A stretch of 33,998 nucleotides of DNA, taken from assembly GCF_001982615.1 (NCBI RefSeq), contig NZ_MLCO01000274.1, positions 1-33,998 on the forward strand, written 5' to 3'. Shown here one piece after another: positions 6,823-15,090 of this stretch (positions are counted from its first letter, which is position 1; each line of letters opens with the position of its first letter). A program made the position numbers and the translations under genes. Origin of the DNA: Teichococcus deserti. Its GTDB lineage: Bacteria; Pseudomonadota; Alphaproteobacteria; Acetobacterales; Acetobacteraceae. Under the pieces are notes generated by a model that worked only from the letters and a program-made list of their open reading frames with translations, searched no databases and was not told where the DNA came from.

Positions 6823-7134
6823 GGTCACGTTCTCCCGTTTCGGTTGTGCCGCCAGTATGCCCGGATGCGGGCTTCCGGCTACCGGCGGGCTTCGCGCGGG
6901 TCGCGTTCGCCTTGTGGTTGCAGGCGGTGCGGGGCCTGCGGGAAACCTCGCCAAAACCTTGAAATCTCAAAAATATTGCAGAATTAGGCCGTGTCTTTCG
7001 GCGTTTCGGGCACCTTGTTTCTCTTTTTTTTAAACAATGTCTCCATTCTTAATACGTTTCAAAAGCGAAAAACCTTTCCTGATTTCGCGCATAGGTGGTA
7101 GGAAATGCGCGTCCAGATTGTGGGGAACCAAGAG
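6823..7134. other. Divergent, AT-richer promoter region between the SDR gene and ctrA
   Basis: About 312 bases without a gene. The part at 6950-7080 is clearly more AT-rich than the rest of the window, as expected for the promoters of ctrA (+) and the SDR operon (-). TTAA occurs at 7030-7033 and 7049-7052, but the spacer is 15 bases rather than the 7 of a full CtrA box. No GANTC motif was seen close to the start. A CGGATGC at 6862-6868 resembles half of the LacI-type operator found before hisD. Confidence 0.5.
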
Positions 7135-7881
7135 ATGCGCGTACTTCTGGTTGAAGACGATCTCACCACCGCGCGCGGCATTTCGATGATGCTGAAGGCA
7201 TCCTCGATGATCGCCGACACCGCCGGAACGGGCGAAGAAGCGCTCGAGCTCGCCGGCCTCTATGATTACGACATCATCATCCTCGACATCATGCTGCCGG
7301 ATATGGAGGGGTATGAGGTGGTGCGGCGGCTGCGCGGCAACCGGGTCGAAACCCCTGTGCTGGTGCTGTCGGGCCTGTCGCGGCCGCAGGCCAAGGTGAA
7401 GGCCTTCGGCATGGGCGCCGACGACTTCATCACCAAGCCTTTCGACCAGCAGGAGCTGATGGCGCGGCTGCAGGCCATCATCCGCCGCGCCAAGGGCTTC
7501 AGCCAGCCAACCCTGTCGGTGGGCTCGCTGACGCTGAACCTGGGCTCGCGCGACGTCCGCGTCGCCGACCGCGAGGTGCATCTGACCGGCAAGGAATACG
7601 CCATCCTGGAGTTGCTGACGCTCCGCAAGGGCCTGGTCCTGACCAAGGAGGTGTTCCTCAATCACCTCTATGGCGGCATCGACGAGCCCGAGGCGAAGAT
7701 CATCGATGTCTTCATCTGCAAGCTGCGCAAGAAGCTGGCCCAGGCCGGGGCCGGCGACCTGATCGGCACCGTCTGGGGCCGCGGCTATGTGCTGCGCGAC
7801 CCGGCCAATCTCGGCGCCCGTTTCCCGGTGGCCGACATGCCGCCGGCCCCCGCGCCGAACCAGCCGCAGGTCGCGGCCTGA
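7135..7881 (+). CDS. ctrA: Cell-cycle response regulator CtrA
   Basis: A 248-residue OmpR-type regulator whose sequence closely follows Caulobacter Ctr[10 protein letters not shown] at the start, phospho-acceptor Asp51, TKPFDQQE at the end of the receiver, and the near-invariant DNA-binding stretch [17 protein letters not shown], then [13 protein letters not shown] and [11 protein letters not shown]. The protein ends in Val-Ala-Ala; in Caulobacter a terminal Ala-Ala is needed for ClpXP degradation. Family alignment and a GGGGA box eight bases upstream select ATG 7135; an in-frame ATG at 7105 would add ten unusual residues. It is transcribed away from the SDR gene and converges on the che operon, whose first gene encodes the phosphotransferase ChpT expected to phosphorylate it. 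Confidence 0.96.
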
Positions 7882-7890
7882 GCCGGAACA

Positions 7891-7918
7891 CCCCGCCCTG
7901 GTCGCATCCAGGGCGGGG
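7891..7918. terminator. Bidirectional hairpin between ctrA and cheR
   Basis: An 11-bp perfect stem, CCCCGCCCTGG (7891-7901) with CCAGGGCGGGG (7908-7918), and a six-base loop. It lies between two converging stops (7881 and 7942), so it can end both transcripts. A T-tract is lacking on both sides. Confidence 0.65.
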
Positions 7919-7941
7919 CGCCCGCTTGCAGGAGGCCTGGC

Positions 7942-8754
7942 TCACAGCAGGCTGCGGTTCTCCGCCAGGCCATAGGCGCCGCGCTCGCCGGTGACGGGGA
8001 CCAGCCGCTCGGTCAGGCCCAGCACCGTCTCGGCGCCGCCGAGATAGAGCACCCCATCCGGCGCCAGCTGCGCCGCCAGGGCGTTCATCACCTTGCCCTT
8101 GGTCGGCGGATCGAAATAGATCAGCACATTGCGGCAGAAGATGACGTCGAAGCGGCCCAGCGCCTTGTGGTCGCCCAGCAGGTTGCGCTCCTCGAAGCGG
8201 GCCATGCCGCGCAGGTCCGGCGAGACGCGCCACTTGCCGCTTTCCTGCCGGAAGTATTTGACCAGCATCTGCACCGGCAAGCCGCGCTGCACCTCGAACT
8301 GGGTGAAGACGCCGTCGCGGGCGCGGTCCACCACCTCCCGCGACAGGTCGCTGCCGAAGATCTCGGCATCCTTGATGCCCAGCTCGCGCAGCACCATCGC
8401 GATGGAATAGGCCTCCTGCCCGGTCGAGCAGGCGGCCGACCAGATGCGCAGCCGGTGCCCGGGCGGTCGCGCGCCCTGCAGCTTCGGCAGCAGCCGCTTC
8501 AGATGCTCGAAAGGCTTGCCGTCGCGGAAGAAGCTGCTTTCGTTGGTGGTCAGCGCCTCGGTGACGGTGCGCGCCAGCGCCTCGGCCCGGGCGTCGCGCA
8601 GGCGGATGGCCAGCGCGTCCATGTTGACGATCCCCTCCTGCTTCAGGATGGGCGCCAGCCGCGTGTCCAGCATGTATTCCTTGTCCGGCGTCAGCACGAT
8701 GCCGGAGCGCGCCTTCACCAGCGCCGCGATCGAGGCGAAGCTATCCGCGTTCAT
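7942..8754 (-). CDS. cheR: Chemotaxis protein-glutamate O-methyltransferase CheR
   Basis: A 270-residue cytoplasmic methyltransferase that adds methyl groups to glutamates of chemoreceptors using S-adenosylmethionine. The N-terminal CheR helical domain (residues 1 to about 75, ending TTNESSFFRDGKPFEHL) is followed by the SAM-binding domain with WSAACSTGQEAYSIAM and FDVIFCRNVLIYFD. Its start overlaps the cheB stop by four bases (ATGA), so adaptation enzymes are made together. It is the last gene of the chpT-che operon and ends at a hairpin shared with ctrA. No cheD or receptor gene is in the cluster. Confidence 0.95.
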   Translation of the reverse strand: MNADSFASIAALVKARSGIVLTPDKEYMLDTRLAPILKQEGIVNMDALAIRLRDARAEALARTVTEALTTNESSFFRDGKPFEHLKRLLPKLQGARPPGHRLRIWSAACSTGQEAYSIAMVLRELGIKDAEIFGSDLSREVVDRARDGVFTQFEVQRGLPVQMLVKYFRQESGKWRVSPDLRGMARFEERNLLGDHKALGRFDVIFCRNVLIYFDPPTKGKVMNALAAQLAPDGVLYLGGAETVLGLTERLVPVTGERGAYGLAENRSLL

Positions 8755-10325
8755 GCCATTCCTCCGGCGGTCAGGCCCGCCGCGCCGAATTGCGTCAAGA
8801 CCTTCTCCGCCAGTTGCTCGGGCGGCAGCAGCATCTGGGCGAGGCCGGCCTTGGCCACCGCCCCGGGCATGCCCCAGACGACGCTCGAAGCTTCGTCCTG
8901 GGCGAAGACCGTGCCCCCCGCCGCCGCCACCGCCTTGCAGCCCAGCATGCCGTCCTGGCCCATGCCGGTCAGGATCACCGCCAGCACGCGCCCCTCGCAG
9001 GCGGCGACCACGCTGCGCAGCATCGGATCCACCGCGGGTCGGCAGAAATTCTCCGGCGGATCGGCGGTCAGCCGCGCCGTCAGCGCGCCGCCCGCATTCT
9101 CCACCAGCAGGTGCCGGTCACCCGGCGCGACATAGATCCGGCCGGGCTGCAGCGGCGCCTTGTCGGTCGCCTCCGCCGCCGGCGGGCCGCCGAGCCGGGA
9201 CAGATGGTCGGCCAGCATGGCCGTGAAGCCGGCCGGCATGTGCTGCACCACCACGATCGGCACTGGCACCGGCGCGGTCAGCCGGCGGACGAAGGCGGCC
9301 AGCGCCTGCGGGCCGCCGGTGGAGGAGCCGATCGTCAGGATGCGCGGCCGCCGCGGCGGCCCGGCCGGGCGGGGCGCCAGGCTGGGTGCTGCCGGCGGCG
9401 GCGCCATCGGCGTCGCGGCCGGCAGCCCCACGCCCGGCAATCCACTGGGCAATCCACTGGGCAGTCCACTGGGCAATCCACCGGGCAATCCCGTTGGCAA
9501 TCCCGCCGGCAGGCCGCGCACCGGCAGCGCCGGCGGCAGGCCGAGCGGCCCGACCTGGGCCGGCATCGTCGTCGTCACAGCCACCGGCGGCGGCACGGCC
9601 GGCGTCGCGGCCGCCGGCGGCGGAGCAGCGGCGGCAGCCGGCGGCCCGGCCGGGCGCGCCAGCGGACGCTGCGGCAGAACCGGCGGCGGCGGCACCGGAC
9701 GGGGCGCAGCGCGCATCCGCGCCCAGCCCTTCACCTTGGCCAGCAGGTCGGCGCGGAAGGCGGCGTCGTTCATGCCGCCGCCGCCGGCCGCGCTGGGCTT
9801 GGGCACATAGTCGACGGCGCCGGCGCGCAGTGCGGCCATGGCGGTGCTGGCGCCGTGCTCGGTCATGGCGCTGGCCACGATCACCGCCAGCCCCGGCTGC
9901 AGCTTCAACAGCAGCGGCAGGGCGGTGATGCCGTCCATCACCGGCATCTCCAGATCCAGCAGCAGCACCTGCGGCCGGGCGACCGAGGGCATGGCCTGGA
10001 TCGCCTCCAGCGCCTGCTGCCCGTCGCCGGCGCGGCCGATCACCTGGATCGCCGGATCGCTTTCCAGCAGCCTGGCATAGGCGGCGCGGACGGTGGCGCT
10101 GTCGTCGCACAGCATGACGCGCACCAGCGGCCCGGTCGGCGCCAGCGCCGCCGCCGCCGCCGGAGACGCCGCCGGAGACGCCACGGGAGACCCCGCCGGA
10201 GAGGTCCCGGCCGCCGCCGGCAGGCTGCCCGCACCCGCGCCCTCCGGCGCCAGCGTCGCCGCCCCCGCCGTGCCGGTGGCCCCGGCCGCGGCGGGGGTCG
10301 CCCGGCCCGGCAGCGGCAGGGTCAC
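8751..10325 (-). CDS. cheB: Chemotaxis response regulator protein-glutamate methylesterase CheB with long Ala/Pro linker
   Basis: A 524-residue CheB, much longer than the usual 350. Residues 1 to about 66 are an Ala/Pro/Gly-rich extension; 67-200 are the receiver with Asp124; about 205-325 are a low-complexity Pro/Ala linker with a GLPS repeat; 326-520 are the methylesterase with the triad Ser335 (GSSTGG), His362 (QHMPAGF) and Asp458 (GMGQDGM). It removes methyl groups from receptors when phosphorylated by CheA. The start overlaps the cheY stop by four bases, which supports keeping the extension. The linker length is odd and probably loosens coupling between receiver and esterase. Confidence 0.94.
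   Translation of the reverse strand: MTLPLPGRATPAAAGATGTAGAATLAPEGAGAGSLPAAAGTSPAGSPVASPAASPAAAAALAPTGPLVRVMLCDDSATVRAAYARLLESDPAIQVIGRAGDGQQALEAIQAMPSVARPQVLLLDLEMPVMDGITALPLLLKLQPGLAVIVASAMTEHGASTAMAALRAGAVDYVPKPSAAGGGGMNDAAFRADLLAKVKGWARMRAAPRPVPPPPVLPQRPLARPAGPPAAAAAPPPAAATPAVPPPVAVTTTMPAQVGPLGLPPALPVRGLPAGLPTGLPGGLPSGLPSGLPSGLPGVGLPAATPMAPPPAAPSLAPRPAGPPRRPRILTIGSSTGGPQALAAFVRRLTAPVPVPIVVVQHMPAGFTAMLADHLSRLGGPPAAEATDKAPLQPGRIYVAPGDRHLLVENAGGALTARLTADPPENFCRPAVDPMLRSVVAACEGRVLAVILTGMGQDGMLGCKAVAAAGGTVFAQDEASSVVWGMPGAVAKAGLAQMLLPPEQLAEKVLTQFGAAGLTAGGMA
9436..9507. repeat. 12-bp tandem repeat (6 copies) inside cheB
   Basis: The unit GGCAATCCACTG runs from 9436 in six head-to-tail copies: the first two are identical, the third has one change, and the last three diverge in their final bases. 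Read on the coding strand each unit encodes Gly-Leu-Pro-Ser or a close variant in the CheB linker. Unit length is a multiple of three, so copy-number changes would keep the frame. Confidence 0.9.
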
Positions 10326-10714
10326 GGCTCGGCTTCTTCGGCGACCAGGCCCAGCTGCACCAGCTTGCCGGTCAGGATCGCGTCGTCGAAAGGCTTCATG
10401 ATGTATTCCTGCGCGCCGGCGCCGAGGGCGGTGACGATGCGGTCGAACTCGCTCTCCGTCGTGCAGAGCATGATCACCGGCTCGTCCGGGCCGAATTCGG
10501 CGCGCGCCGCCTTGAGGAATTCCAGCCCGTCCATCACCGGCATGTTCCAGTCCAGCAGCACCAGCTTCGGCAGGCTGGCGCGGCAGGATTCCAGCGCCTG
10601 CTGCCCGTCCTCGGCCTCGCTGACCTGGAAGGCATGGCGCTCCAGGATGCGGCGCGCCGCCTTGCGCACCACGCGGCTGTCATCGACCACCAGGCAGGTC
10701 TGCGGGGCCTCCAT
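10322..10714 (-). CDS. cheY: Single-domain response regulator, CheY
   Basis: A 130-residue stand-alone receiver: acidic pair at 11-12 (VVDDS), phospho-Asp55 (LLDWNMPVMDG), switch Thr in MLCTTE and Lys in YIMKPFDD. It would carry the CheA signal to the flagellar motor, or act as a phosphate sink. Several in-frame starts exist; AAGGAGG lies seven bases before ATG 10714, while the ATG at 10720 sits directly against it, so 10714 is chosen. It begins 13 bases after the cheW stop and its stop overlaps the cheB start (ATGA). DivK- or CpdR-like function cannot be excluded from sequence alone, but the che context favours CheY. Confidence 0.9.
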   Translation of the reverse strand: MEAPQTCLVVDDSRVVRKAARRILERHAFQVSEAEDGQQALESCRASLPKLVLLDWNMPVMDGLEFLKAARAEFGPDEPVIMLCTTESEFDRIVTALGAGAQEYIMKPFDDAILTGKLVQLGLVAEEAEP

Positions 10715-10727
10715 CACCATCCCTCCT

Positions 10728-11261
10728 TCACCCGATCGCCAGGATGCGATCGACATCGAGCACGATCAGCAGCCGGTCGTCCTGGCGGTGCACCCCGCGC
10801 GACACCTCGCGCCAGACCGGGTCCAGGGTCGGCGGATTGCCGGCGAAGCCGTCGCCAGGCAGCGGCACCACCTCCCCCACCGCGTCGGAGAGCAGGCTGT
10901 AGAGCTCGCCCGCCTGCTCGACGACGACGCTCATCGGCGGGCCGGCCTTGGGGTTGCGCTCCGGCAGGCCGAGGCGCCGGCGCAGGTCGATGGCGGTGAC
11001 GATGCGGCCGCGCAGATTGAGGCTGCCCGCCACCTCGCGCGGCGCCAGCGGCACCCGGGTGATCGATTGCGAGGCCAGGATGTCGCGCACCGCCAGCACC
11101 GGTACGCCGCACAGCTGCCCCGCCACCGTCAGCGTCAGGAACATTTCTGCAGCACTGTCGCCCAGGCCCACGGCCCGCGCCGCCACCGCGGCCGCCGCAT
11201 TGCCCGCCTGGCCGCCGGATCCCGGCCGCGCCGCGCCGCCGGGCTGCATCTCGCTCTGCAC
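10728..11261 (-). CDS. cheW: Chemotaxis coupling protein CheW
   Basis: A 177-residue scaffold that links chemoreceptors to CheA. Residues about 38-175 form one CheW domain, with the family pattern FLTLTVAGQLCGVPVLAVRDIL, a loop SLNLRGRIVTAIDLRRRLGL, and the terminal strand LLIVLDVDRILAI. The first 37 residues are a Gly/Ala-rich tail. The start is GTG at 11261 with GGAG six bases upstream; an ATG at 11249 is an alternative four codons in. It lies 48 bases after cheA and 13 before cheY in the same operon. Confidence 0.92.
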   Translation of the reverse strand: MQSEMQPGGAARPGSGGQAGNAAAAVAARAVGLGDSAAEMFLTLTVAGQLCGVPVLAVRDILASQSITRVPLAPREVAGSLNLRGRIVTAIDLRRRLGLPERNPKAGPPMSVVVEQAGELYSLLSDAVGEVVPLPGDGFAGNPPTLDPVWREVSRGVHRQDDRLLIVLDVDRILAIG

Positions 11262-11309
11262 TGGCTTCTCCTTTCTTGCTGCTACGGCCCTGGTTCCGAC
11301 GGCATCGCG

Positions 11310-13991
11310 TCAGGCCATGGCCGGCGCTGGCAGATGCTGCTGCAGCGCCGCCAGCAGGGCATCGCGGTCGGATTTTCCGACATAGTCAGTGAAGCCGGCG
11401 GCGATGGCCTGGCGCACCTGCTCGGGCTCGACCCGGCCGGACAGCGCGATCATTGGCAGCGCCTGCCAGGGACCTTCGGCGCGCACCGCCCGCGCCAGGC
11501 CGATCCCGTCCAGATCGGGCATCTCGATGTCGGAGACGATGATATCGAACATCGCCCCCTGCTCGCGCAGCTGCAGCGCCTGGTTGCCGGTGTCGACCGC
11601 GACCACGTCGTAGCCGCAGGCGGTCAGGCCCGGTACCAGCAGGTGGCGGAAGAAGGCGCTGTCCTCGACCAGCAGCAGGCGGCGCACCAGCTGCGCCAGC
11701 GAGGGCGGGCGGAACCAGTCGTCGCCCGCCTGACGCAGCCACCAGGCGCAATCCATCACATCGGTCACCTTGCCGCCGATCACCGCGCTGCCCAGAAAGC
11801 CCGGCATCTCGCTGGGCCCCTCGATCAGCAGATGCGCCTCGACCACGTCGAGGATGCTGTCGACCATCAGCCCCATGGCGCGGTCGCGGTCGTTGAAGAC
11901 CAGCACCGCCTGGCGCCGCCCGGGCTCCGGCGGCATCCAGCTGCCCGACATCGGCACCAGCGGCATCAGCTTGCCGCGATACTGCACCAGGGTCTTGCCG
12001 CCGGAATGCTCGATGCTCTCGACCGGAAGATCCTCGAGCCGTGCGACGAGCCCCAGCGGCACCGCCTTCGGCGTGTCGTCGCCGGCGCGGAACAGCAGCA
12101 GCGCCGTGCGCTCGGTGGAGCGCTGGCCGCGCAGCCCTTCCGGCCCGCGCGCCGCATCCTCGCTCGGCCCGTCGGCGCCGACGCCCGTCGCGCGCGCGAT
12201 GCCATTGGGATCGAGGATCATGATGACGCTGCCATCGCCCAGGATGGTGTTGCCGCTGAACATGGTCACATGCCGCAGGATCGGCGCCACCGGCTTGACC
12301 ACGATCTCCTCGGTGTCGAAGACCTTGTCGACGATGATGCCGAAGACATTGGCGCCGACCTGGGTGACCACGACGAAGCCTTCATCGGCCTTGCCCCCCT
12401 CCTGGCCAGCCGCCATCTCCAGCTGCAGCAGGTTGGACAGCGAGACCAGCGGCAGCAGCCGGTCGCGCAGCCGCATCACCGGCGTCGCATGGATCCGCTC
12501 GATCTGCGCGCCTTCGCTGCTGCCGCCGGCGCGCACCAGCTCGACCACGCCGATCTGCGGGATGGCGAAGCGCTCGCCGCCGGCTTCCACGATCAGCGCC
12601 GAGACGATGGCCAGGGTCAGCGGGATCTTGATGTAGAAGGTCGTGCCCTTCCCCTCGACCGAGCGCAGGTCGATGGTGCCGCCGATCTTCTCGACATTGG
12701 TCTTCACCACATCCATGCCGACGCCGCGACCGGAGACCGAGGTCACCGCCGCCGCCGTCGAGAAGCCGGCGCGGAAGATGAAGTGCTGCACCTCGCGCTC
12801 GCTCATGCCCGCGAGCTCGGCCTCGGTGGTCAGCCCCTGGCTCAGCACCTTGGCCTTGATCTTCTCGACCGAGAGGCCGCGGCCGTCATCGCCGATCTCG
12901 ATGATGATATGGCCGCCCTCGTGATAGGCGTTCAGCAGGATGCGGCCGATCTCGGGCTTGCCGGCGGCGCGGCGCTGCTCGGGATTCTCGAGGCCGTGGT
13001 CGCCGCTGTTGCGCACCATATGCGTCAGCGGGTCCTTGATCAGCTCCAGCACCTGGCGGTCGAGCTCGGTCTCGGCGCCCTTCATCACCAGCTCGATCTT
13101 CTTGCCCAGCTCGTTGGCCAGGTCGCGGACGATGCGCGGCAGCTTCTGCCAGGCATTGCCGATCGGCTGCATGCGGGTCTTCATCACCCCCTCCTGCAGC
13201 TCGGAGGTGATATGCGACAGCCGCTGCAACGGCACGGTCAGCGCCGCGTCGCTGCGGGCGCGCACCAGCTGCAGCAGCTGGTTGCGGGTCAGCACCAGCT
13301 CGCTGACCAGGGTCATCAGGTCTTCCAGCACGTCGACGGCGACGCGGATGGTCTGCGGCGGCGCTGCGGCCGCGCCAGCGGCGGGGGCCGCCGCGCCACC
13401 GGCCGCAGGGGCCGCGCCGGCGGCGACGGCCGGGGCAGGCTCGGGCTCCTCCTTGGCCGCCGGCGCAGCAGCCGCGGCCGGCGGCGGTGCCACGGCCACC
13501 GGCTCGCTCGGCATGGCGTCGAAAGCGGCTTCGGCCGCGGCGGCGGAGGCCTCGGGCGAGGTGTCGGCGGCGGCGGCGGCGGCCGGCGTCGGTGCCGCGG
13601 CGGCCGCCGCCGATTCGCCCCGCCAGGCGGCGTCCAGCCGGGCGATCAGCGCGGTGTCGTCGCCGCCCGGCTCGCTGCCCGTCGCCTCCAGCCCGGAGAC
13701 GATGCTCTTCAGGCAGTCCAGCGCCGAGAGGATCAGCGTGATCCCCTCCGGCGTCACCAGCAGCGAACCCTCGCGGTAGCGGCCCAGCACGTTCTCGGCC
13801 GCATGCGCCACCTTCTCCAGCCGCGACAGGCCGAGGAAGCCGCAGGTGCCCTTGATGGTGTGGACGTTGCGGAAGATCTCCGACAGCGTCGGCCGGTCGT
13901 CCGGCGCCTTCTCCAGCTTCAGCAGCGCCACGTCGAGCGCCGCCAGCCCCTCATTGGTCTCGGTCAGGAAGTCGGCGAGAAGGTCGTCCAC
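11310..13991 (-). CDS. cheA: Hybrid chemotaxis histidine kinase CheA with two CheW-like domains and a C-terminal receiver
   Basis: An 893-residue kinase. In order: Hpt domain with His44 (NVHTIKGTCGF), Ala/Pro linker about 125-212, dimerisation domain, HATPase with N-box (MVRNSGDHGLE, Asn328) and G boxes (GDDGRGLS, SGRGVGMDVV), a CheW domain about 465-600, a second CheW-like segment about 625-755, and a receiver about 770-890 with Asp821 (VSDIEMPDLDG). GTG 13991 is preferred: it gives the family start MDDLLADFLTET and has GGGGA five bases upstream; a TTG at 14006 is the alternative. It phosphorylates CheY and CheB. The fused receiver may act as a phosphate sink or regulate the kinase. Confidence 0.95.
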   Translation of the reverse strand: MDDLLADFLTETNEGLAALDVALLKLEKAPDDRPTLSEIFRNVHTIKGTCGFLGLSRLEKVAHAAENVLGRYREGSLLVTPEGITLILSALDCLKSIVSGLEATGSEPGGDDTALIARLDAAWRGESAAAAAAPTPAAAAAADTSPEASAAAAEAAFDAMPSEPVAVAPPPAAAAAPAAKEEPEPAPAVAAGAAPAAGGAAAPAAGAAAAPPQTIRVAVDVLEDLMTLVSELVLTRNQLLQLVRARSDAALTVPLQRLSHITSELQEGVMKTRMQPIGNAWQKLPRIVRDLANELGKKIELVMKGAETELDRQVLELIKDPLTHMVRNSGDHGLENPEQRRAAGKPEIGRILLNAYHEGGHIIIEIGDDGRGLSVEKIKAKVLSQGLTTEAELAGMSEREVQHFIFRAGFSTAAAVTSVSGRGVGMDVVKTNVEKIGGTIDLRSVEGKGTTFYIKIPLTLAIVSALIVEAGGERFAIPQIGVVELVRAGGSSEGAQIERIHATPVMRLRDRLLPLVSLSNLLQLEMAAGQEGGKADEGFVVVTQVGANVFGIIVDKVFDTEEIVVKPVAPILRHVTMFSGNTILGDGSVIMILDPNGIARATGVGADGPSEDAARGPEGLRGQRSTERTALLLFRAGDDTPKAVPLGLVARLEDLPVESIEHSGGKTLVQYRGKLMPLVPMSGSWMPPEPGRRQAVLVFNDRDRAMGLMVDSILDVVEAHLLIEGPSEMPGFLGSAVIGGKVTDVMDCAWWLRQAGDDWFRPPSLAQLVRRLLLVEDSAFFRHLLVPGLTACGYDVVAVDTGNQALQLREQGAMFDIIVSDIEMPDLDGIGLARAVRAEGPWQALPMIALSGRVEPEQVRQAIAAGFTDYVGKSDRDALLAALQQHLPAPAMA

Positions 13992-14104
13992 GGCGTTCCC
14001 CGGCAATCGGCTTGAAGGCGGCAGCGTTGGATGGCGTCATCCGCAGCCTGGGGGCGCCGTGCCGAAGAAAGCGTAAAGCCCGCGGGGCAGTTGGTGGCTC
14101 CGTC

Positions 14105-14761
14105 TCAGCTCCGGCCGGATTCGTTGCTTCCCGAGTCGGCGGGTGCCGACTCGACCGGCACCAGCAGCAGCGCCGCCGCCGCCTCCGTCCCCGCCGTCCC
14201 CGGCTCCAGCCGCGCCGCCCAGCCGGCCAGCCCCGCCAGCCGCAGCAGCATCCGCCCCAGCACCTCGCGCGGACCGCCGGGGCCGTCGCCCTCCAGCACC
14301 GGCGCCAGGCTGGCAGGCCAGGCCGCCAGCCGCCCGACCGGGCGCAGCCGCAGCCCGGCCTCCCAGCCGCCATCCGGCGCGGTCGCCCGCACCGTGCCGC
14401 CGCGCGGCAGCGCCTCCCCCGCCAGCATGGCGGCAACCAGCAGCAGCTGCGCCACCGGCGCCGGCAGCGCCGCCCCGGCCGGCAGGGCCGACAGGTCCAG
14501 CGTGGCGCGGCCGCCGGCCAGCATCCCCTCCAGCAGGCTGCCCACCTCCGACAGGGCCAGCGGCCCGGTCCCCGCCCCGCAGGCGGCGCGCCAGAATTTC
14601 AGCCGCCGGCGCAGCTCGGCGGCGGCGTCGCGCGCCAGCTCCCCCGCCTCGGGCTCGTCCGCCAGCAGGTCGATGGCGCCGGCCACCGTGCCCAGGGGCC
14701 CCACCAGGTCGTGGCACAGGCGCGCGCAGAGGTCCTGCGCCAGCATCGCTTCCGCATCCAT
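14105..14761 (-). CDS. chpT: Histidine phosphotransferase ChpT
   Basis: A 218-residue protein that matches the ChpT family: an N-terminal helix with LCARLCHDLVGPLGTVAGAI (His17 the likely phospho-acceptor), a second long helix LRRRLKFWRAACG, and a degenerate ATPase-like C-terminal domain with no intact nucleotide-binding boxes. In Caulobacter, ChpT passes phosphate from CckA to CtrA and CpdR. Here it is the first gene of the che operon, 113 bases before cheA, and ctrA is at the other end of the cluster. ATG 14761 is chosen; a TTG two codons earlier is possible. A GTTAAC and a small palindrome sit upstream (14817-14837). Confidence 0.87.
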   Translation of the reverse strand: MDAEAMLAQDLCARLCHDLVGPLGTVAGAIDLLADEPEAGELARDAAAELRRRLKFWRAACGAGTGPLALSEVGSLLEGMLAGGRATLDLSALPAGAALPAPVAQLLLVAAMLAGEALPRGGTVRATAPDGGWEAGLRLRPVGRLAAWPASLAPVLEGDGPGGPREVLGRMLLRLAGLAGWAARLEPGTAGTEAAAALLLVPVESAPADSGSNESGRS

Positions 14762-14816: not shown

Positions 14817-14837
14817 GTTAACATCACGCTTCCGTGA
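14817..14837. promoter_or_regulatory. Possible regulatory site upstream of the chpT-che operon
   Basis: GTTAAC (14817-14822), a sequence like a CtrA half-site, is followed by TCACG-CTTC-CGTGA (14824-14837), a 14-base inverted repeat. Both lie in the 158-base gap between chpT and the divergent DUF3553 gene. No full TTAA-N7-TTAA box is present, so the CtrA reading is tentative. Confidence 0.3.
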
Positions 14838-14919: not shown

Positions 14920-15090
14920 ATGACCCTGCTCGAGCCCGGCATGCTGGTGCGCCACCCGACCCGGCCGGAATGGGGCCTGGGCCAGGTCCAGTCGGTGGTG
15001 GGCAGCCGCGTCACCGTGAATTTCGAGCATGCCGGCAAGCTGCTGATCAACGTGGCCCAGATCGCCCTCGACGTGGTCGACGAGGCATGA
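14920..15090 (+). CDS. DUF3553 domain protein
   Basis: A 56-residue protein; the sequence LEPGMLVRHPTRPEWGLGQV followed by VTVNFEHAGKLLIN is the DUF3553 pattern seen alone or fused to helicases in alphaproteobacteria. It probably folds as a small SH3-like/CarD-type beta barrel and may contact nucleic acid or a partner protein, but the role is not known. Its stop overlaps the start of the TauE-like gene by four bases (ATGA), which confirms that it is translated. A weak GAAG box precedes the ATG. Confidence 0.85.
   Translation: MTLLEPGMLVRHPTRPEWGLGQVQSVVGSRVTVNFEHAGKLLINVAQIALDVVDEA

Follow-up and report, generated by a model that had tools for sequence, protein, structure and literature searches.

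Among the closest described systems to the locus studied here is the CckA-ChpT-CtrA phosphorelay of Caulobacter, Brucella, and Rhodobacterales. Mutants of P. inhibens in cckA, chpT, and ctrA express the eight genes of a che cluster, without exception, at levels up to 32-fold lower, and in R. rubrum ctrA, cckA, and chpT are co-located with flagellar operons, an arrangement said to need further attention (PMC12363192, available in part). The genes chpT, cckA, and divL have been reported in only 27 to 36% of Rhodospirillales genomes (excerpts of PMC8116508), and chpT orthologues are absent from some groups (excerpts of PMC2877005). The full CtrA site is given as TTAA(N7)TTAA with TTAACCAT as a variant, and an N6 spacing is given for CtrA sites in R. 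sphaeroides and Magnetospirillum (excerpts of PMC6180460). On the chemotaxis side, the che1 operon codes for five proteins, including CheA1, CheW1, CheY1, and CheR1 (excerpts of PMC8561660); the CheA of A. brasilense and of A. caulinodans carries two CheW stretches and a receiver, and alphaproteobacterial CheAs of this kind are assigned to class F5 (excerpts of PMC10542144).

The locus described here lies in a 33,998-nt stretch of Teichococcus deserti (family Acetobacteraceae; contig NZ_MLCO01000274.1), hereafter the window. It resembles the R. rubrum arrangement (PMC12363192) in that relay genes are clustered with motility genes, and it differs from the known phosphorelay in that ctrA and chpT enclose an entire che operon. 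The available part of the R. rubrum paper (PMC12363192) deals with one genome and its flagellar operons, with no che bracket, che loss, or cheA box. In the literature that we searched, to which most subscription papers do not belong, we found no description of a che bracket or of a box before cheA.

Gene content and identity of the relay proteins

Gene identity, gene order across families, and box conservation were computed. The genes and strands are as claimed in the original prediction, with ctrA on the forward strand converging on chpT-cheA-cheW-cheY-cheB-cheR on the reverse strand (14761 to 7942) and chpT beginning at the ATG at 14761, the start given there (Table 1). All five che products scored above the cutoff for their own Pfam families. 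The cheA gene more likely starts at the GTG at 13991, where its relatives begin with MDDLL, and with this start the chpT-cheA gap measures 113 nt. The junctions that follow, from cheA-cheW onward to cheR, are 48, -29, -4, and -4 nt, and ctrA and cheR stand tail to tail with their ends 60 nt apart.

TABLE 1 Features of the chpT-che-ctrA locus, in positions of the window
Feature	Coordinates	Strand	Description
Two TTAA sites 5' of ctrA	7029..7054	+	15 nt apart, not N7; possible CtrA half-sites, weak
ctrA	7135..7881	+	Response regulator, receiver and winged helix; NF045991 365.4 bits (cutoff 350); PF00072, PF00486
cheR	7942..8754	-	Chemoreceptor methyltransferase; PF01739 186 bits
cheB	8751..10325	-	Methylesterase with receiver; PF01339 207 bits, PF00072
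cheY	10322..10756	-	Single receiver; PF00072 92 bits
cheW	10728..11261	-	PF01584 93.5 bits
cheA	11310..13991	-	Hpt, dimerisation, HATPase, two CheW stretches, C-terminal receiver; longest ORF to 14006
Element TTTACGCTTTCTTCG in the chpT-cheA gap	14063..14077	-	86 nt ahead of the cheA start, measured from its first base
chpT	14105..14761	-	Histidine phosphotransferase; PF10090 54.8 bits (cutoff 22.9)
Palindrome TCACG-N4-CGTGA, then TTAAC, upstream of chpT	14817..14837	-	Genus-level site
Presumed DUF3553-type gene	14920..15090	+	Divergent from chpT; frequent chpT neighbour in other loci

CtrA exceeded the cutoff of the CtrA equivalog model (Table 1) and has an Asp at residue 51, as read from the translation. 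ChpT stayed below two NCBIfam ChpT equivalogs (84.5 bits for a cutoff of 225 and 55.5 bits for a cutoff of 240), which by name are models of the Caulobacter type and of the Brucella/Rhizobium type. Its H19 D20 pair is invariant in 40 of 40 aligned ChpTs, and the AlphaFold2 model (mean pLDDT 94) had Caulobacter ChpT 4fmt as its best PDB match (TM 0.75), followed by 4fpp and by 4qpj/4qpk. The latter two are a phosphotransferase with and without receiver domain, which we take to be that of Brucella. A profile made from the ChpT alignment matched 4qpj at 1.3e-63, and the other structural matches were also found by sequence. The locus thus shares with the described phosphorelay the ChpT fold, the invariant His-Asp pair, and a CtrA over its family cutoff.

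Within its genome, the window chpT is the sole stand-alone PF10090 match found; two further matches are weak and fall in frames of 741 and 905 aa that also match a CckA model. The Caulobacter CckA model, the one used here, gave 15 matches at E ≤ 1e-60, the best of 325 bits for a cutoff of 1000, and none over that cutoff, which sets this genome apart from the known relay.

Distribution of the chpT-che-ctrA gene order

PF10090 had matches in 49 of 58 relatives at E ≤ 1e-3, where some hits were histidine kinase fragments, and in 166 of 289 genomes of the class at E ≤ 1e-8. For gene order we used 140 chpT loci from 76 families, hand-picked for family breadth (40 plus 100), so that the shares below are not unbiased; the same-genus loci L004 to L016 are related to each other, and the bins rest on our own score thresholds. 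The full bracket, chpT followed by cheA and further che genes and then by a converging ctrA, occurred in 45 loci from 25 families. Another 30 loci had chpT followed by cheA with ctrA out of view (in 10 of these <7 kb of sequence remained), and 18 had chpT and ctrA converging with no che gene labelled between them; among these, an unclassified ORF of L053 resembles a receiver, and ca. 2.9 kb separates chpT from ctrA in L089. Part of the che set alone was present in 16 loci (followed by ctrA in nine and without it in seven), cheA was >1.5 kb from chpT in three, and neither che nor ctrA lay near chpT in 25, to which three loci with sequence ending within 1 kb must be added. A cheA-type start was also seen in two loci binned as partial che (L055 and L105) and in one binned as having none (L037). 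Counted per family, chpT is followed by cheA in 41 of 76, and ctrA converges downstream of chpT in 43 of 76.

In the organism-named set of 80 loci, where many Bradyrhizobium loci end <1 kb from chpT and carry little information, the full bracket was found in Azospirillum (L171 and L180), Nitrobacter (L189), Tepidicaulis (L236), and a Rhodobiaceae MAG (L224). Parvibaculum (L192 and L198) had chpT converging directly with ctrA, and Rhizobium (L219, L229, and L233) had a lone cheY between chpT and the converging ctrA.

Since it recurs in many families, the gene order is not due to chance. The original prediction had looked to the Rhodospirillales for a comparison of gene order; the linkage of chpT, ctrA, and che is real, its recurrence is far wider than that order, and the link is much older than had been supposed. 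The likeliest history is an ancestral locus from which the che genes were later lost. The order might instead be an old accident retained with no coupling between the genes, and moaA and a DUF3553-type gene, which have no known link, do remain near chpT in several loci. We consider this unlikely, given that the order persists over many deeply diverged families and that ahead of cheA stands a box, specific in its spacing, for the protein that the flanking ctrA gene encodes (see below).

Three genomes of the window's family (G017, G025, and G032) had FlhA and a CtrA relative, while a stand-alone chpT was not found; the bracket was absent from the 8 kb viewed around ctrA in each. The CtrA relative lies on the contig of flhA in G017 and G032 (L155 and L157, ≤4.7 and ≤11.5 kb apart), and G025 has a CheB-like gene ca. 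3.4 kb from its CtrA relative. Conversely, G009, a genome of the same genus as the window and rated 100% complete, kept the whole chpT-che-ctrA locus (L012) and had no FlhA or FliF match, suggesting either that the system need not serve flagella alone or that the loss is recent. The search for FlhA covered the 58-genome set, and that for FliF covered 11 genomes. The window genome itself gave two FlhA and two FliF matches (contigs C570, C171, and C166), possibly from two flagellar systems.

A putative CtrA-type box ahead of cheA

The chpT-cheA gap has a median length of 144 nt (79 loci with a cheA-type start found within 900 nt). In families other than that of the window, it typically contains a sequence like TTTAC-N6-TTTAAC, that is, TTAA-N7-TTAA with one mismatch. 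Taking one locus per family and dropping L070 and L105 from the gap counts as doubtful, TTAA-N7-TTAA with ≤1 mismatch was present in the gap of 30 of 40 families outside the window's, and not found in that of the other 10; 200 shuffles (dinucleotide preserving, as throughout, with 20, 60, or 200 per test) gave a mean of 3.79 and a maximum of 10. Counted per locus, 42 of 56 gaps outside the window's family had the box at this threshold (mean 5.9 and maximum 10 in 60 shuffles). Among the named loci the figure was 13 of 19, without shuffles and with some genomes shared with the family set, and the six lacking it at ≤1 mismatch (L175, L189, L207, L210, L213, and L240) include Nitrobacter and Thalassospira. 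When the spacing was varied from N3 to N12 across the 40 families, N7 gave 30 matches, N6 14, and N9 12, and the rest 2 to 5.

CtrA-type sites are also enriched elsewhere in the locus. Exact CtrA-type sites were found upstream of chpT in 10 of 141 loci (mean 0.5, maximum 3) and upstream of ctrA in 13 of 71 (mean 0.9, maximum 2), and the variant TTAACCAT upstream of ctrA in 23 of 71 (mean 0.8, maximum 3; 20 shuffles in each case). That such boxes are enriched in relatives before each of the genes chpT, ctrA, and cheA is a further likeness to the CckA-ChpT-CtrA phosphorelay.

The loci in which cheA lies apart from chpT help to assign the box to a gene. In four of five (L054, L114, L165, and L166), a box with ≤1 mismatch lies 108 to 120 nt upstream of cheA, and the fifth (L029), which is independent of the other four, has one with two mismatches; none of the five has a ≤1-mismatch box within 250 nt after chpT. 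Judged by its placement, the box is more probably an element of cheA than one of chpT. In the 18 loci where chpT and ctrA converge with no che gene between them, the box was found in one, a weak control considering that 16 of the 18 segments are <120 nt and four are <20 nt. The conserved box in the gap, together with its presence upstream of displaced cheA genes, suggests that cheA is probably under its own CtrA-controlled promoter. Confidence in a separate cheA promoter is lowered by the fact that the CheAs of the four concordant loci cluster together, with support, in the CheA tree, so that these loci may represent a single event.

It had been proposed that chpT is the first gene of the che transcript, and a single chpT-cheAWYBR transcript, in which the dose of ChpT would track che expression, is a possibility that we hold tentatively and with more doubt than belief. 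Arguing for it, chpT and cheA are on the same strand in the window, the later che junctions overlap, and the palindrome that the genus conserves ahead of chpT points to a chpT promoter. Across families, however, the proposal is weakened by the putative CtrA-type box in the gap (and, with the caveat of the single clade, by the box that accompanies displaced cheA), by the length of the gap, by terminator-like hairpins in 8 of 77 gaps (mean 1.65 and maximum 5 in 20 shuffles), and by the many loci where chpT has no adjoining che genes. Clear terminator-like hairpins stand directly after chpT and ahead of cheA in L058, L122, and L147.

The box could also serve some other factor, as a promoter or operator whose likeness to a CtrA site is incidental, a reading that we doubt. 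TTAA sites are simple, and in the window's family the right half of the element reads TTCGC despite a nearly unchanged CtrA recognition helix. Against this, N7 is the published CtrA spacing (PMC6180460, available in part) and the dominant one among the spacings compared, and the smaller rise at N6 has its published parallel in R. sphaeroides and Magnetospirillum (same source, same limits).

The altered element in the family of the window

The window's family departs from this pattern. TTAA-N7-TTAA with ≤1 mismatch was found in none of its 21 gaps, and the best match in the window gap has three mismatches. At the place that matches the box of other families, the window gap reads TTTAC-N6-TTCGG, and TTTAC-N6-TTCGC with ≤2 mismatches occurs in 18 of the 21 gaps of the family (60 shuffles: mean 1.2, maximum 4); in same-genus gaps the element takes the form TTTAC/TTCAT...CTTCGC between chpT and cheA. 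The element TTTACGCTTTCTTCG is, on sequence comparison, an altered form of the putative CtrA-type box of the other families, and TTAA-N7-TTCG in L028 is a possible intermediate. In the family's CtrA, the Leu that precedes the recognition helix is replaced by Ala or Val and the stretch leading to the wing is shorter; the recognition helix itself is nearly unchanged. A change in CtrA as the cause of the altered box was considered and is unproven: family f94 (L112 and L151) also has the Ala yet keeps TTAAC.

The window element was also rejected as a genome-wide motility motif, with one exact and one 1-mismatch copy versus seven matches of the reversed control. The exact copy is the one in the chpT-cheA gap, and the genome scan revealed no regulon with the window form of the element. 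The 113-nt window gap contained no terminator-like site, a sigma-70 promoter scan of it found none, and it offered no match by eye to the consensus of sigma-54 or sigma-28 promoters. With an altered box and no terminator-like site, read-through from chpT into cheA is possible in the window, and to this extent the single transcript of the original prediction may still apply there.

Upstream of chpT, the palindrome TCACG-N4-CGTGA was present with ≤1 mismatch in the window and in 13 of 13 same-genus loci, and exact in 12 of these 14; TTAAC follows it closely in 8 of the 14. It was discarded as a class-wide site, as 14 of the 16 loci (out of 141) that have it at ≤1 mismatch are the window and its genus.

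CheA lineage and the C-terminal receiver

A midpoint-rooted tree with 56 rows placed 48 CheAs in one group (SH-aLRT 99) that broadly tracks taxonomy, with exceptions that include the split family f63. The tree left out own-genome CheA-like proteins of lower score (L048 to L051). Two CheA-like proteins of the window genome (on C278 and C219) fall outside this main group, as do Sphingomonas-type and a few other chpT-linked CheAs, which have long branches and an unsure placement. Contig C13 of the window genome carries a partial CheA (L046) that groups with the chpT-linked CheAs of the family, a duplicate or broken copy; there was no PF10090 match on this contig.

The window CheA combines an Hpt and a kinase with two CheW domains and a receiver, the domain set of CheA in an F5-class operon. 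It shares the two CheW stretches and the receiver with the Che1 system of Azospirillum brasilense, and chpT is followed by cheA in Azospirillum itself (L168, L171, and L180); the likeness to F5/Che1 is one of domain makeup and not of a class model. Of 122 CheA ORFs, a number that counts in overlapping loci and copies of the window, 102 carry a C-terminal receiver, and several of the others are cut by the end of the locus.

Possible direct cross-talk between CheA or its receiver and the CtrA relay had also been suggested. In such cross-talk, ChpT and the Hpt or receiver of CheA would exchange phosphoryl groups, feeding the state of the chemoreceptors to CtrA. By eye, the CheA receiver retains its Asp and Lys, and the frequency of the receiver, along with a genome in which the best match falls so far short of the Caulobacter CckA cutoff, would suit such cross-talk; effects of A. 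brasilense Che1 and CheA on cell length appear among the titles in the reference list of PMC8100600 (available in part). We nonetheless find it highly improbable. The first helix of the receiver (DDSPFFRN type) is, by eye, unlike that of CtrA, and receiver-less CheAs also adjoin chpT (L030, L215, L228, and L235), which means that the linkage does not require a receiver, though all of these CheAs are outside the main group. A broader scenario, in which the receiver-bearing CheA of an ancestral alphaproteobacterial unit traded phosphoryl groups with ChpT while CtrA drove cheA from the box in the gap, and later loss of che left chpT and ctrA tail to tail with the relay turning into a cell cycle controller, seems to us hardly more plausible.

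Proposed regulation and significance

We consider it probable, with some reservation, that the bracket is an old locus whose che operon is transcribed from a separate, CtrA-controlled promoter within the chpT-cheA gap, and that the coupling between relay and chemotaxis is transcriptional. Weighing against it are the altered box of the window's family, the other families without a box, the loci with neither che nor ctrA close to chpT, and the three relatives that have FlhA but no bracket around ctrA. The locus would be an old alphaproteobacterial motility control in which chpT and ctrA bracket a five-gene che operon, with cheA-cheW-cheY-cheB-cheR as a transcription unit of its own. CtrA~P, made through ChpT, would bind the TTAA-N7-TTAA-type box and set che expression, giving the order CckA-type kinase, ChpT, CtrA, and che. 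In the window's family, where the box would now be TTTAC-N6-TTCGC, CtrA may control cheA in a changed way, or read-through from chpT may have taken over part of this control. Promoter activity, CtrA binding, the direction of regulation, and the ancestral bracket with later che loss are what we infer in this model. The P. inhibens mutant data fit transcriptional coupling by analogy, though the che genes are located elsewhere in that organism.

On the practical side, the conserved neighborhood means that chpT can be sought by position in genomes. The gene order and the conserved box suggest that the CtrA relay was assembled around a che operon; the adjoining chpT and ctrA seen in some rhizobia and in other bacteria would then be a remnant left after che loss. 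The finding bears on how a motility regulator turned into a master regulator of the cell cycle.
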